Part shown: positions 28,755 to 39,113 of the stretch, one piece after another
How the letters are laid out: every line of letters begins with the position of its first letter
Numbering within the stretch: the stretch's first letter is position 1
Origin: Candidatus Saganbacteria bacterium
GTDB taxonomy: Bacteria > Margulisbacteria > WOR-1 > XYC2-FULL-46-14
Length of the DNA: 45,422 bases
Assembly (NCBI GenBank): GCA_013202975.1
Contig: JABMQY010000011.1
Span: 1 to 45,422, forward strand
Direction of reading: 5' to 3'
The notes under the pieces: generated by a model
Database searches by the model: none
Told to the model about the DNA's origin: nothing
What the model saw: the letters and a program-made list of their open reading frames with translations, nothing else
Position numbers and translations under genes: made by a program

Positions 28755-33065
<4,311 letters not shown>

Positions 33066-33066
<1 letters not shown>

Positions 33067-34007
33067 TACATGTTTTTCATAACTGTTGAGATTACCTTTT
33101 CTTCAGCTTCAAGCAGCGGCATATTAAGGGTTACCCCAGCGGCCTGAATATGTCCTCCGCCCCCCAAATCATTGGCAATTTTTGAGACATTGGTCCTTCC
33201 CTTTGAACGCAGATTTACCTTTATGGTGTTTTCTTTTTCTTCCCGCAAAAACACCGTTACATCCGTGTCTTTTATAGCCCTCAGATAATCAATAATGCAG
33301 ATTAAATCATCATGGGTTGCACCTGTTTTTTTGATAATTTCGTGAGAGAGTGACGACCAGACCAATTTTCCTCTTTTTTCAATTTTATCCAGCGCATAAG
33401 AGAGAACCTTCATTCCGGCAATGGTCTTGGTATCATATACAGCGGAAGCAATCTGTGATGGAATTGCCCCGCGCAGAACTAAATCACAGGCCACCTCAAA
33501 GGTGCTGGGCAGAGTATTGGCATAACGAAAATTTCCGGTATCAGTGATAATGGAGACATACAGGGCTTTAGCAATTTCCTGATTGATCTCAACGTTTAGT
33601 TCTTTGGCAAGTTTATATATCTGTTCCGCCACCGATGATAGCAGCTCAACACAATTTATATCTCCAAAATTAGTGTTATCCGCATGATGATCAATATTTA
33701 TGATGTGTTTTGCTGTTACTTTAATATTTCCTGTTCGAGACAGGTCAGAGGCATCTACTGTAAAGAATAAATCATACTCTTTTCGTTTAGGTGAAGTTCT
33801 GATTTTATCTGCACCGGAAAGAAAAAGAAAACTGGGAGGAACCTTATCCTGACAACACATGTCTGATTTTTTTCCCAGTTTTTCCAGGATCAGATGAAGG
33901 GCTATCATAGACCCGAGGGTGTCGCCGTCAGGATCAATATGTCCGGCAATCAGGATAGTGCGGGCATTTTTAATCAATAGCTTTATAGATTCGTAAATAC
34001 GTCTCAT
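33066..34007 (-). CDS. nrnA: DHH-family bifunctional oligoribonuclease/pAp phosphatase
   Basis: A 313-residue DHH/DHHA1 protein of the NrnA type, which degrades short oligoribonucleotides and 3'-phosphoadenosine 5'-phosphate. Metal-binding motifs are ILIAGHIDPDGDTLGS (16-31), FTVDASD and the DHH itself in NIDHHADNTNFG. The DHHA1 substrate motif GGGGHIQAAGV lies near residue 280. The start overlaps the rbfA stop (ATGA) and the stop overlaps truB (TAATG). The rbfA-nrnA-truB order is common in bacteria. Confidence 0.93.
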
Positions 34008-34387
34008 TTTGACTTATTTTTTTTGGAAATCCTTTTACTTTCGGCTGCTTCTTTTTCTAACTTTGACATAATAGCAAATACCCGGCCGCCTCTCTCAATA
34101 GACTTGTCCTGGACAAAATTGAGCGACGGAGTATAACGCAGCTCAAGGGATCTGCTCAGCTCTCCCTGAATATAGCCTTTTGCGCTCAGAAGCCCCTGCA
34201 TTGATTCCCTTTTGTTGAGATCGGTTCCATAAATACTGACGAATACCTTTGCAGTTTTTAAGTCAGGTGAGAGATTTACATCGGTTACAGAGGCAAATCC
34301 AATCCGGGGATCAGAAACCTTTTCCCTAAGGATTCTGCAGATTTCTTCTTTAATCAGCTCGCCTAATCGTTTGCTGCGGTTGTTCAT
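34004..34387 (-). CDS. rbfA: Ribosome-binding factor A
   Basis: A 127-residue KH-like protein required for late 30S maturation and 16S rRNA 5' processing. RLGELIKEEICRIL, VSDPRIGFASVTDVNLSPDL and YTPSLNFVQDKSIERG are typical of the family. A basic tail (RISKKNKSK) ends it. It overlaps infB upstream and nrnA downstream by four bases each (ATGA), so the block is tightly coupled. Confidence 0.95.
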   Translation of the reverse strand: MNNRSKRLGELIKEEICRILREKVSDPRIGFASVTDVNLSPDLKTAKVFVSIYGTDLNKRESMQGLLSAKGYIQGELSRSLELRYTPSLNFVQDKSIERGGRVFAIMSKLEKEAAESKRISKKNKSK

Positions 34388-36498
34388 ATGCGGATTTTTT
34401 CTCTCATTTCAAATACTTCCAGTTTGTCCCCAACCTTGAAATTGCTATAACCCTGAACTGCTACGCCGCACTCATATCCTTCCTGAACCTCTTTTACATC
34501 ATCTTTAAACCTTTTAAGGAATTCTATTTTGCCTTCAAAGATCTGCTCATTTTCGCGGATAACCCTAAGCCCGGCTCCCCGCTTGAAAATACCAAAAGTA
34601 ATAAAACATCCTGCAATTACTCCGATTTTTGAATATTTAAAGGTATCGCGGACATCTCCGCGGCCGATTACAACCTCTTCATATTCAATTGACAGCATTC
34701 CCTCCATTGCCTTTTTGATGTCTTCGATAACCTTGTAAATAATATTGTATGTGCGGATAGAGACAGATTCATTTCTGGACATTTCACGTGCCCGGACACT
34801 GACATTTGTGTGAAAGCCGATTACGATTGCGTTGGATGCTTCTGCCAGCAGGATATCGCTTTCAGAGACGCCGCCAACCTGTGCATGAATGATATTAATC
34901 TTATTGCCGCCGACCTCTATATCTCTCAAGGATTGCGCCAGTGCTTCAAGCGATCCTTTTACATCAGCTTTCAAAATAATATTAAGATCCTTTTTTTCAC
35001 CCTCTTTAACATGCTGACTGAATCCTTCCAGCGTCTGCGCACCCCTGTGCGCAATTTTTGTTTCTTCTAATCTGGTGCCGGCAAGACGACGGGCTTCTTT
35101 TTCGTTTTTAACAACTTCCATTAATTCTCCCGGCTGGGGTACATCAGAAGCTCCTAAAAGTTCTACTGCCATAGAAGGCGGGGCATGTTTAATGCGTTTT
35201 CCTGCCTCGGTGTTTAAGGCTTTAACTTTGCCAAAGACCGAACCAATAACAAAAGGATCCCCAATTTTTAGGGTCCCGTTTTTTATCAATATGGTTGCAA
35301 CCGGCCCCCTGCCTTTATCCAGCTTTGATTCAATAACAACCCCGCTGGCAGAAACGTCAGGATTAGCTTTTAGTTCTTGTACTTCTGCAACCAGGAGGAT
35401 CATTTCTAACAATTCATCCATTCCCTTTTTCTGCAGCGCAGAAATTGGGACTGTAATTGTTTCCCCTCCCCAATCCTCAGGAATCAGTTTGTGTTCAGCC
35501 AGCTGCTGCTTTACCTTGTCAGGATTTGAATCTGCCTTATCAATTTTATTGATTGCAACAATAATGGGTACCCCGGCTGCTTTTGCGTGGTCAATTGCTT
35601 CTATCGTCTGCGGCATAACTCCGTCATCGGCCGCAACCACTAAGACTGCAATATCAGTTACCCTGGCCCCGCGGGCACGCAGAGCGGTAAAGGCCTCATG
35701 TCCGGGGGTATCAAGAAATGTAATTTTTTTATCTTTTATTTTAACCTGGTAAGCTCCAATATGCTGGGTAATTCCTCCGGCTTCGCCTTCTGCAACCTTA
35801 GTTTGGCGGATGGCATCCAGAAGTTTGGTTTTTCCATGATCAACGTGTCCCATAATTGTTACTACCGGAGGCCTGGTTACTAATTTGTGTTTATCAGAAA
35901 GCACAACTTCGTGCTTTTTTTCAACTTTTCGGATTATTTCGGCCTTTGCGCCAAATTGTTCTGCAATTTGAACTGCAGCTTCTGATGCGAGGGATTGGTT
36001 AATATTAACCATGAACCCTTTTTTCATGAGTTCCTTAATTACTTCTGTAGTCTTGATTTGCAGGAGATCAGCTAAATTTTTTACAACAATACTGTCTCCC
36101 TCTATCTTTATTATTTTTATTTCAGGTTCAGGCGCAGGTTTGGGTTCTGTCTCCTTGGATGGTTCAGGTTCTTTTTTGGGCTCTATATTAGGCTCTATTT
36201 TAGGTTCTATTTTTGTTTCTATTTTTGTTTCTGGTGCAGGTGCAGTTTTTGGTTTTTCCAATAATTCTTTTACTATTTTGACAGATTCTAAATCAACTGA
36301 GCTGGCCTTAGTTTTTACCTCTATCCCCAGGTCTTTCAGAATAACAATCAGTTCTTCAACGGTTTGACCGGTCTCTTTTGCCAATATACTTATTTTTATT
36401 TTCTTGATTTTTGGGGAGGGAGATTTTTTTGTTGTCTTTTTAACCGCTTTTTTAACTGTTTTTTTAACTGTTTTTTTCTTTGGTTTTTTTATTGGCAT
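34384..36498 (-). CDS. infB: Translation initiation factor IF-2
   Basis: A 704-residue IF-2 that brings fMet-tRNA to the 30S subunit. The N-terminal 125 residues are Lys/Ala/Pro/Glu-rich and repetitive (KTVKKTVKKAVKK, then repeated KIEPK-type units). An IF2-N domain follows (SILAKETGQTVEELI). The GTPase core begins PVVTIMGHVDHGKT (G1), with DTPGHEAF (G3) and AINKIDKAD (G4). The C-terminal domains that bind the initiator tRNA follow to the end. Its ATG shares a base with the nusA stop (TAATG). There is no ylxR gene between nusA and infB, unlike many Gram-positive bacteria. Confidence 0.96.
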   Translation of the reverse strand: MPIKKPKKKTVKKTVKKAVKKTTKKSPSPKIKKIKISILAKETGQTVEELIVILKDLGIEVKTKASSVDLESVKIVKELLEKPKTAPAPETKIETKIEPKIEPNIEPKKEPEPSKETEPKPAPEPEIKIIKIEGDSIVVKNLADLLQIKTTEVIKELMKKGFMVNINQSLASEAAVQIAEQFGAKAEIIRKVEKKHEVVLSDKHKLVTRPPVVTIMGHVDHGKTKLLDAIRQTKVAEGEAGGITQHIGAYQVKIKDKKITFLDTPGHEAFTALRARGARVTDIAVLVVAADDGVMPQTIEAIDHAKAAGVPIIVAINKIDKADSNPDKVKQQLAEHKLIPEDWGGETITVPISALQKKGMDELLEMILLVAEVQELKANPDVSASGVVIESKLDKGRGPVATILIKNGTLKIGDPFVIGSVFGKVKALNTEAGKRIKHAPPSMAVELLGASDVPQPGELMEVVKNEKEARRLAGTRLEETKIAHRGAQTLEGFSQHVKEGEKKDLNIILKADVKGSLEALAQSLRDIEVGGNKINIIHAQVGGVSESDILLAEASNAIVIGFHTNVSVRAREMSRNESVSIRTYNIIYKVIEDIKKAMEGMLSIEYEEVVIGRGDVRDTFKYSKIGVIAGCFITFGIFKRGAGLRVIRENEQIFEGKIEFLKRFKDDVKEVQEGYECGVAVQGYSNFKVGDKLEVFEMREKIRI

Positions 36499-37526
36499 TA
36501 TTTATCCTTTTTTTCTTCTTTCTTTTCTTCTTTCTTTTCTTCTTTTATATTTTTAGCTATTGATTCGCTTTCCGGAGCTGATTCTTTTTTCTTGAGAACT
36601 TCAGTAGAGGCAATGTCAATTCTATATCCGGTAAGTTTTGATGCCAGCCGGACATTTTGGCCCTCTTTGCCGATTGCAAGCGAAAGTTCATTTGGCGGTA
36701 AAATTACCCGTGCAGTTTTGGCTTCTTCATTTATTTCTACTTTGCTTGGTTTGGCAGGAGACAAGGCAGAAGCGATAAACTTGTCGATTTTATCCGACCA
36801 TTCTATGATATCAATTCGCTCTCCTCCCAGTTCCCTGGTGATATTTTGGATACGGGCTCCCATCTGTCCGACACATGTACCAATAACCCCTACGTTAGAA
36901 TCATGAGATATAATTCCGATTTTGGTGCGCCGGCCCGGTTCACGGGAAATTTCTTTAATTTCTAATATCCCATCCTGTAATTCGGGAACTTCCATCTCAA
37001 AAAGTTTTTTTATGAAATCAGCGTGACTCCTGGAGACGACAACAATCGGACCTTTGGATGACTTTTTAACATCCAAAATTAATAATCGGATCCGGTCATT
37101 GGGGCCATAATTTTCTCCGGGTATACATTCACTGATGCTAAGATAGGTTTCCAGCCTGCCCAGGTTGATCAGGTATCCGTGGGTCTCTTTGCGCTGTACT
37201 GTTCCATTCATAAGCTGGCCGATTTTTTCATGGTATTCATTGAAAAGACCTTCTTTTTCTGCTTCTCTGATGCGTTGAAGAATAACCTGTTTTGCTGTCT
37301 GGGCGGCCAATCGTCCAAAGTCTTTTGGTGTGATGTCTTTTCCTTCATCAAAAACCTGTGCTTCCCCATTATCATTCATTTTGACTTCGAGGTTTTCTTT
37401 GTCGGGAAAGCGTTTCCGGCCGGCAGACATCAGTGCTTCTTGCAGAGCCAGCATAATATCTTCTTCTTTAATCCCTCGCTCTTCCTGAATTTGCTTCAGC
37501 ATTGCCTTAAATCTTGGTATCTTCAT
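36498..37526 (-). CDS. nusA: Transcription termination/antitermination factor NusA
   Basis: A 342-residue NusA. The N-terminal polymerase-binding domain (MKIPRFKAMLKQIQEERGI) is followed by the S1 domain (about 100-170: MNGTVQRKETHGYLINLGR) and two KH domains (EPGRRTKIGIIS, VGQMGARIQNIT, AIGKEGQNVRLASKLTG). The protein ends in a charged KKEEK tail made of short DNA repeats. I start it at 37526, where family similarity begins and GGGAGGGG lies about 11 bases upstream. A frame continues upstream to 37625, but that stretch holds the promoter and leader hairpins. There is no rimP upstream; the operon starts here. Leader structures suggest autoregulation. Confidence 0.95.
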   Translation of the reverse strand: MKIPRFKAMLKQIQEERGIKEEDIMLALQEALMSAGRKRFPDKENLEVKMNDNGEAQVFDEGKDITPKDFGRLAAQTAKQVILQRIREAEKEGLFNEYHEKIGQLMNGTVQRKETHGYLINLGRLETYLSISECIPGENYGPNDRIRLLILDVKKSSKGPIVVVSRSHADFIKKLFEMEVPELQDGILEIKEISREPGRRTKIGIISHDSNVGVIGTCVGQMGARIQNITRELGGERIDIIEWSDKIDKFIASALSPAKPSKVEINEEAKTARVILPPNELSLAIGKEGQNVRLASKLTGYRIDIASTEVLKKKESAPESESIAKNIKEEKKEEKKEEKKDK

Positions 37527-37539
37527 TGTATATTTGGCT

Positions 37540-37578
37540 CCCCTCCCACTAAAAACAAAAGTGGGGTTTTCCCACTTT
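37540..37578 (-). promoter_or_regulatory. Leader with mutually exclusive hairpins before nusA
   Basis: On the minus strand AAAGTGGG (37578-37571) pairs with CCCACTTT (37565-37558), followed by TTTTGTTTTT: an intrinsic terminator. The same CCCACT can pair instead with a downstream AGTGGG (37550-37545), which abuts the GGAGGGG ribosome-binding site. The two hairpins cannot coexist, so the leader can terminate or hide the ribosome-binding site. The ATG is at 37526. Confidence 0.6.
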
Positions 37579-37610
37579 ATTTTGCAATCTATTAAATACC
37601 TACCTTTTAT

Positions 37611-37639
37611 ATTATAACGCTGCACGGGGGAATATGCAA
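37611..37639 (-). promoter_or_regulatory. Sigma-70 promoter of the nusA-infB-rbfA-nrnA-truB-ligA operon
   Basis: On the minus strand TTGCAT, a 17-base spacer and a perfect TATAAT. The predicted start of transcription near 37604 leaves a leader of about 80 bases before the nusA ATG. Confidence 0.75.
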
Positions 37640-37715: not shown

Positions 37716-39113
37716 ATGCTCAAAAAAACAGACCCAGATATCATCAAATCGTACCTGGAAGACAGTTCCAACCTTCAGGGCGGCCATGCCGAGGGGGTTT
37801 ATGTCCCCGAGAACGAAAAAGAGATCATAGAAGCGGTTAAGGAAAGTAGTAGTAAAAAGCAGCCTTTGACGGTTTCTGGTGCCGGGACGGGGACTACGGG
37901 GGGACGGATTCCCTTTGGCGGCTGGGTATTATCAACTGAAAAGTTAAATCGGATAGTTAATATTGATAAAACAAATAAGACTGCCCTGATTGAGCCTGGA
38001 GTGACACTTGAGGAGCTGGATGCTGCTGTTTCTAAAGTGGGACTGCTGTATGCGCCGGATCCTACTGAAAAGAGCGCTTTTTTGGGGGGTACTGTTTCTA
38101 CAAATGCTTCTGGAGCACGAAGTTTAAGGTTTGGCTCAACCCGGGATCATATTAATAAGCTAAGAGTAGTGTTGAGCTCCGGTGAAGTTTTCGGTATTTC
38201 TCGGGGACAGAAGCCCCATTTTCCAATTCCCAGTTACCATTTCCCTGCTATCAAAAATTCAGCTGGCTACTATTCTAAACCGGGCATGGATTTAATCGAT
38301 TTATTCATTGGTTCCGAAGGAACACTTGGTGTTGTGTCGGAAATTGAGGTGAGATTGATGGATAAATTAGGTGAAACATTTGATTGTATTGCATTTCTCG
38401 ATTCAGAAGAGGCTGCTGTTTTATTTACAGAAGAATTGAGAGAAAAAAAAGATGTACTTACACTTGAATACTTTGATCAAAACTCGCTAGAAATGCTTAG
38501 AAAGACTTATCCTCATATTCCCTCAGGAAATAAAACAGCTATTTATTTTGAGCAGATTATAAGAGATGATAAATATCTTGATTTTTGGGAGGAATTCTTC
38601 AATAAGCACAAAGTGTCGATGGACTCTGCTTGGCTGGGTATGAACGACAAGCAGAAAAAAGAGCTGCATGATTTCCGTCATGCAATTCCAGAGACCATCA
38701 ATGAACTTTATAAGCATGAACATCAGCAAAAGGTTTCTCTTGATATTGCAGTGCCTGATAAAAATTTCAGATCTATGTTAAATTTTTACAACTTACAACT
38801 CACAACTAACAATCTACAACTTTTCCACATAAAATTTGGTCATATTGGACAGAGTCATCTGCATGTTAATATGCTGCCGAAATCTGATGAACAACGCAAA
38901 TTGGCTCAAGACTTGGCGATGAAATTTGTTAAGAAGGCGGTTTCACTTGGGGGAACTGTATCTGCAGAGCACGGAATCGGTAAAATCAAGCACACTTATT
39001 TGAAAGAGATGTTTGGACAAGCTGCAATTGATGAGATGATTGGGATTAAAAAGAGATTTGATCCGAGGATGATTCTAAATCTGGGAAATATCTTTGATAT
39101 AGTACATACTTAG
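37716..39113 (+). CDS. FAD-linked oxidase (glycolate/D-lactate dehydrogenase GlcD-like)
   Basis: A 465-residue VAO/PCMH-type flavoprotein. The FAD-binding half contains PLTVSGAGTGTTGGRIPFGG, LIEPGVTLEELD, GGTVSTNASGARSLRFGSTRDH and FIGSEGTLGVVSEIEV. The C-terminal half has the FAD-oxidase fold, with FGHIGQSHLHVNMLP and the substrate/metal motif VSAEHGIGKIKHTYL. Relatives oxidise D-lactate, glycolate or 2-hydroxyglutarate. The substrate here is not resolved. Residues about 357-369 (NLQLTTNNLQL) are encoded by short repeats of ACAACTT type. The ATG is six bases from an extended -10, with no Shine-Dalgarno sequence, so it is probably leaderless. It is divergent from the nusA operon. Confidence 0.85.
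   Translation: MLKKTDPDIIKSYLEDSSNLQGGHAEGVYVPENEKEIIEAVKESSSKKQPLTVSGAGTGTTGGRIPFGGWVLSTEKLNRIVNIDKTNKTALIEPGVTLEELDAAVSKVGLLYAPDPTEKSAFLGGTVSTNASGARSLRFGSTRDHINKLRVVLSSGEVFGISRGQKPHFPIPSYHFPAIKNSAGYYSKPGMDLIDLFIGSEGTLGVVSEIEVRLMDKLGETFDCIAFLDSEEAAVLFTEELREKKDVLTLEYFDQNSLEMLRKTYPHIPSGNKTAIYFEQIIRDDKYLDFWEEFFNKHKVSMDSAWLGMNDKQKKELHDFRHAIPETINELYKHEHQQKVSLDIAVPDKNFRSMLNFYNLQLTTNNLQLFHIKFGHIGQSHLHVNMLPKSDEQRKLAQDLAMKFVKKAVSLGGTVSAEHGIGKIKHTYLKEMFGQAAIDEMIGIKKRFDPRMILNLGNIFDIVHT
38786..38822 (+). repeat. Short tandem-repeat tract inside the FAD-linked oxidase gene
   Basis: Units of the type TACAACT/CACAACTAA are repeated about five times with small changes and read in frame as NLQLTTNNLQL between two conserved segments. 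Confidence 0.75.

Follow-up and report, generated by a model that had tools for sequence, protein, structure and literature searches.

The leader of the nusA operon in this genome carries an intrinsic terminator hairpin that is real and conserved across the phylum. Our preferred reading, to which we give a probability of about 0.75, is that this leader terminator would serve as a NusA feedback attenuator of the nusA operon. The window, by which we mean the whole 45,422-nucleotide stretch of Candidatus Saganbacteria DNA analysed here, holds the leader and its genes on the minus strand, with the nusA ATG at 37526, and all leader features were read on that strand; a plus-strand fold of the region was set aside as irrelevant, since nusA lies on the minus strand. 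Downstream of the leader the gene order reads nusA-infB-rbfA-DHH (nrnA-like)-truB-ligA, in agreement with the nusA-infB-ligA operon proposed in an earlier note on this DNA.

Table 1. Features of the nusA leader and its operon, in the direction of transcription
Feature	Position	Strand	Basis
-35-like hexamer TTGCAT, nusA promoter	37634..37639	-	sequence
-10 hexamer TATAAT	37611..37616	-	sequence; 17 nt after TTGCAT
5' arm of terminator hairpin, AAAGUGGG	37571..37578	-	folding; AAGUGGG conserved in relatives
Hairpin loop AAAAC	37566-37570	-	
3' arm of terminator hairpin, CCCACUUU	37558..37565	-	folding; pairing kept despite core changes in relatives
U-tract UUUUGUUUUU, with a break at its 5th U; overlaps the base of the stem	37551..37560	-	sequence
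Purine stretch of Shine-Dalgarno type, AGUGGGAGGGG	37540..37550	-	sequence; third segment of the earlier note
nusA, 342 aa, NusA_N + S1 + KH	36498..37526	-	
infB (IF-2)	34384..36498	-	
rbfA	34004..34387	-	
DHH/DHHA1 phosphoesterase, nrnA-like	33066..34007	-	
truB	32335..33066	-	
ligA, NAD-dependent DNA ligase	30369..32357	-	

Two arrangements of nusA in relatives were seen in passing. In one (L024), the end of nusA, directly 5' of infB, resembles an IF2_N domain by eye (KYKVHELAKEMNISSSDLIAKLRELGFSVKAAN). In two others (L005 and L006, from genomes G007 and G002), the frame matching nusA runs on to 975-1033 residues with one internal TAA, which suggests that nusA and infB may there share one frame, split by a single stop.

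The TTGCAT-17-TATAAT promoter claimed in the earlier note is present before nusA and is conserved in relatives. A generic promoter scan had missed it because TTGCAT shares only 3 of its 6 positions with TTGACA. At nusA, relatives of the same order have TTGCAT, TTGCAC or near variants followed after 17-18 nt by TATAAT, two other families of the class have TTGACA as the -35, and a -35/-10 pair stands 5' of the hairpin in all 22 class leaders with a GTGGG core. From the position of the -10 hexamer, transcription of nusA is predicted to start near 37604. On the other side of the promoter lies a gene for an FAD-linked oxidase (37716-39113), divergent from nusA.

We also observed that the nusA promoter (37639-37611) contains the pattern TTGCAYAT...TGTGC ahead of TATAAT, which is common to same-order relatives at nusA. 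Elsewhere in the same genome, two other sites, TTGCACATTCTGTTGTGCGGGTATATAAT (L133, ~1029-1057) and TTGCACATCCTATTGTGCGAGTATATAAT (L134, ~906-934), stand before or near genes for unknown, probably exported proteins, and a fourth, looser match occurs at L135. The pattern is perhaps an operator overlapping the nusA promoter.

The leader RNA carries the segments AGTGGG, CCCACT and AGTGGG at 37576-37571, 37565-37560 and 37550-37545, just as had been described. The first pair had been claimed to form a terminator with a U-rich tail, and it folds as predicted: AAAGUGGG and CCCACUUU make an 8-bp stem around the 5-nt AAAAC loop, followed by UGUUUUU, and the end of the stem lies 31 nt from the nusA ATG. 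The hairpin alone has a predicted energy of -10.1 kcal/mol. With its A/U extension this becomes -12.0 kcal/mol (z = -3.6), a stability matched by none of 200 shuffles; overall, the hairpin is more stable than expected for its composition at z = -3.0 to -3.6. The fold of the complete leader does not stand out (z = -1.0).

The leader terminator looks weak. Its short stem and broken U stretch could make for poor termination. The median energy of all 50 leader stems is -10.7 kcal/mol compared to -19.8 kcal/mol for 18 gene-end hairpins from the window and the class loci, and the class leaders differ from gene-end hairpins in stem energy at p = 0.03 in what is a small and noisy sample. In the U-tract, T1-T4 do not vary among the class leaders (22 of 22) and T9-T10 are kept in 21-22 of 22, with interruptions at positions 5-8. 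In B. subtilis, terminators that depend on NusA or NusG have been described with interrupted U-tracts (PMC8060035).

We compared the nusA leaders of relatives, 60 of which belong to this phylum and have an identifiable nusA start. Of these 60, 47 have a terminator-like hairpin no more than 120 nt from the start, against an expectation of 1.37 when the same leaders are dinucleotide-shuffled. Addition of a motif search brought the number to 50; the remaining 10 have no recognisable hairpin of this type. The GUGGG/CCCAC core (GUGGG...CCC[A/G]C) is kept in 38 of the 60 leaders, and in another 12 its place is taken by different cores, such as GGGCGCA/TGCGC, AAGCGG/CCGCTT and GGAGCGG/CCGCTCT. These alternative cores (GCGG/CCGC, GAGCGG/CCGCUC and GCGC/GCGC) still pair, with U-A, A-U, C-G and G-C variants, and because some lineages have changed the core sequence, strict sequence recognition is unlikely. 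In an alignment anchored on the outermost G-C pair, from which one leader that fell out of register (L012) was left out, 5 of 7 stem positions vary on both sides with pairing kept and 94.5% of cells pair. The covariation score of the stem is 0.58, compared to 0.23 for shuffled and at most 0.12 for slid partners, in a test that is partly circular, pairing having been the criterion by which the hairpins were first identified. Two arguments are independent of this test, namely the shuffle count and how specific the motif is to its place. As to place, the motif occurs at a single site in the 2.2-Mb genome, which is the nusA leader, and of 39 distinct sites for the pattern GTGGGN3-10CCCACTTTT in 74 genomes of the phylum, 34 are nusA leaders on the sense strand.

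Several other candidates were considered and dropped. A regulon of other genes carrying the same hairpin was rejected, as the 5 sites away from nusA in the 74 genomes do not exceed the reversed control pattern (14, both strands). A leader peptide was rejected as well: the only in-frame starts are GTGs within the GUGGG segments, and by eye their frames are not kept in relatives. For the Rfam Clostridiales-2 RNA, the best match (37489-37592) is weak, at 22 bits against a cut-off of 58.6; that RNA is another hairpin-plus-AAGGAGG motif, and its likeness to the nusA leader may be coincidence. Separately, ~60 nt 5' of nusA, two members of family f16 (L063 and L067) carry a longer stem, GGCTGCTTCTCC...GGAGACAGCC, with a run of eight T after it; this is apparently another terminator in the position of the short hairpin.

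In several relatives (e.g. L004, L009, L013, L014 and L018), the nusA promoter comes after a separate, stronger terminator that belongs to the upstream gene, and the order in several of them is upstream-gene terminator, TTGACA-17-TATAAT, leader hairpin. Because the gene-end terminators, where there are any, are separate and upstream of the promoter, the hairpin is best read as a leader attenuator. Sigma-70 promoters generally start transcription 6-7 nt past the -10 hexamer. Of the 22 class leaders, 11 have a core that starts only 14-20 nt after that hexamer; the hairpin of these 11 would therefore begin near +8 to +14, and termination would yield an RNA of about 35-45 nt. With the core so near the -10, half of the class leaves little space, if any, for a sensor or for an antiterminator upstream.

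We infer that the hairpin terminates transcription in the cell and that NusA is its regulator. In the mechanism that we propose, the operon nusA-infB-rbfA-nrnA-truB-ligA would be transcribed from the promoter ~80 nt 5' of nusA, and the nascent RNA would fold the short hairpin with its imperfect U-tract within the first ~50 nt. Some RNA polymerases would stop there and release a tiny RNA, while the rest would continue into the operon. Polymerase-bound NusA would stimulate stopping, so that synthesis of nusA and the rest of the operon would fall when NusA is abundant and rise when it is scarce; neither an antiterminator nor a hairpin masking the ribosome-binding site would be required.

The earlier note had instead envisaged an autoregulatory switch in which CCCACU has two possible partners: the upstream AGUGGG, giving the terminator, and the downstream AGUGGG, giving a hairpin that masks the ribosome-binding site. 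The three segments are indeed present here, with the second AGTGGG copy (37550-37545) running into GGAGGGG (37546-37540), and a 6-bp CCCACU/AGUGGG hairpin of -7.5 kcal/mol is possible. However, this is less stable than the terminator hairpin (-10.1 kcal/mol), which also forms earlier, and the downstream AGUGGG occurs in only 1 of 46 leaders, that of this genome. Genomes with changed cores (L003 and L006) have unrelated ribosome-binding sites. Furthermore, the 3' arm pairs with downstream sequence no better in its own genome (8.91) than after downstream sequences were swapped among genomes (8.70; 41 of 300 swaps as high), such complementarity arising because a purine-rich Shine-Dalgarno sequence meets a C-rich arm. 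The comparison of leaders for covariation thus upheld the first pair, which is conserved with its pairing kept, but not the third segment, which does not co-vary. As a conserved mechanism the two-state device is refuted, and we regard it as highly improbable for this leader; AGUGGGAGGGG is part of the ribosome-binding region and no conserved alternative stem. What survives of the proposed switch is the conserved leader terminator, probably subject to NusA feedback for which there are published precedents.

The remaining alternatives concern what the terminator does and what acts on it. It might be fixed and unregulated, holding the operon at a low constant level or shielding its promoter from stray transcription; a terminator alone is no proof of regulation, and no sensor is visible. 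We think this unlikely, however, given that the element is conserved across the phylum and in the rimP-nusA operons of other phyla, that NusA feedback has been published for B. subtilis and E. coli, and that a weak promoter would be a simpler route to the same effect. Less likely still is that the main effector is another product of the operon (IF-2 or RbfA) or another termination factor (NusG or Rho). Here infB comes next after nusA in the operon, and terminators dependent on NusG, too, have interrupted U-tracts and A-U pairs at the base of the stem (PMC8060035), but direct precedent at this leader exists for NusA only. That the hairpin arose by chance, or is the 3' terminator of a neighbouring gene, we consider negligible. 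The same rule does find terminator-like hairpins 5' of 4 of the 36 open reading frames of at least 150 aa in the window; yet chance would not account for a hairpin conserved after the promoter and found in 47 leaders where 1.4 were expected, and the oxidase gene is divergent, so no gene ends here.

RimP, whose gene usually follows this leader in other bacteria, was matched in none of the 74 phylum genomes by RimP_N (PF02576), the RimP C-terminal domain (PF17384) or a 17-sequence RimP alignment. Outside the phylum, RimP_N matched 32 of 41 genomes, and the alignment also recovered a divergent RimP (G086) that RimP_N had missed, although the alignment of 17 included the G086 sequence itself. The phylum might still encode a RimP that is yet more divergent. 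A GGG/CCC hairpin, mostly GTGGG/CCCAC, stands just before rimP(-nusA) in 15 of 30 genomes from other phyla. Among the outside genomes with no RimP match, one (G085, L123) has AGTGGGCGCAAACGCCCACTTTTTGTTTTGC before nusA; in the others examined, the motif was not seen there. The leader thus persists on nusA although RimP is undetectable, which indicates that RimP is not needed and argues against it as the effector, and for NusA or the operon as such. The question of NusA versus RimP was left open in 2010. A bolder possibility, on which we would not bet at even odds, is that the GUGGG/CCCAC hairpin is a near-universal bacterial signal read by NusA itself, with RNA polymerase, independently of RimP. 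If true, a phylum in which RimP was apparently lost and the leader kept on nusA would be a natural experiment separating the two candidate effectors.

The closest known system is the rimP-leader, the most frequent attenuator in the bacterial survey of Naville & Gautheret 2010 (PMC2965389), described as a short terminator with a GGGc...gCCC stem that is found only before rimP-nusA-infB and has no antiterminator, with NusA proposed as the best candidate effector (PMC2965389). By definition it belongs to the 5' UTR of this operon and lies 4-130 nt before the first start codon. The element described here has GGG/CCC arms and a U-stretch, lies in the 5' UTR of nusA-infB at 31 nt from the ATG, shows no visible antiterminator, and is specific to the nusA operon in its genome. 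Its core is usually GUGGG/CCCAC, with GCGG, GAGCGG or GCGC in some lineages. The difference lies in the first gene, which is rimP there and nusA here. The E. coli rimP leader likewise has a GGGC...GCCC hairpin and a U-tract (AACTGGGCTTTAGGCCCTTTTTTT). The Rfam family named after the same operon leader (RF01770, rimP; cut-off 47 bits) gives no match in this genome and, among 14 control genomes, matches E. coli only; its model is narrower than the element found here.

In B. subtilis, as in our proposal, termination in the leader sets transcription into nusA. The B. subtilis leader was reportedly described by Mondal et al. in 2016 as being without an antiterminator. NusA-stimulated termination in it constitutes autoregulation (review PMC12288461). 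That leader is longer, at 180 nt (PMC2965389), precedes rimP (ylxS) and was tested experimentally. In S. agalactiae, termination was seen by RNA-seq 31 nt after the start of gbs0413-0418 (rimP-nusA-infB) (PMC4448216), a shortness as extreme as that predicted here for half of the class, although rimP is again the first gene. The nusA leader is thus an ordinary, well-conserved attenuator of a known kind, with undetectable RimP as its twist. The short leaders, with a hairpin ~8-14 nt past the predicted start, offer a minimal system in which to test how factors stimulate termination close to a promoter, and the element adds a phylum without detectable RimP to the range of one of the most widespread bacterial attenuators.
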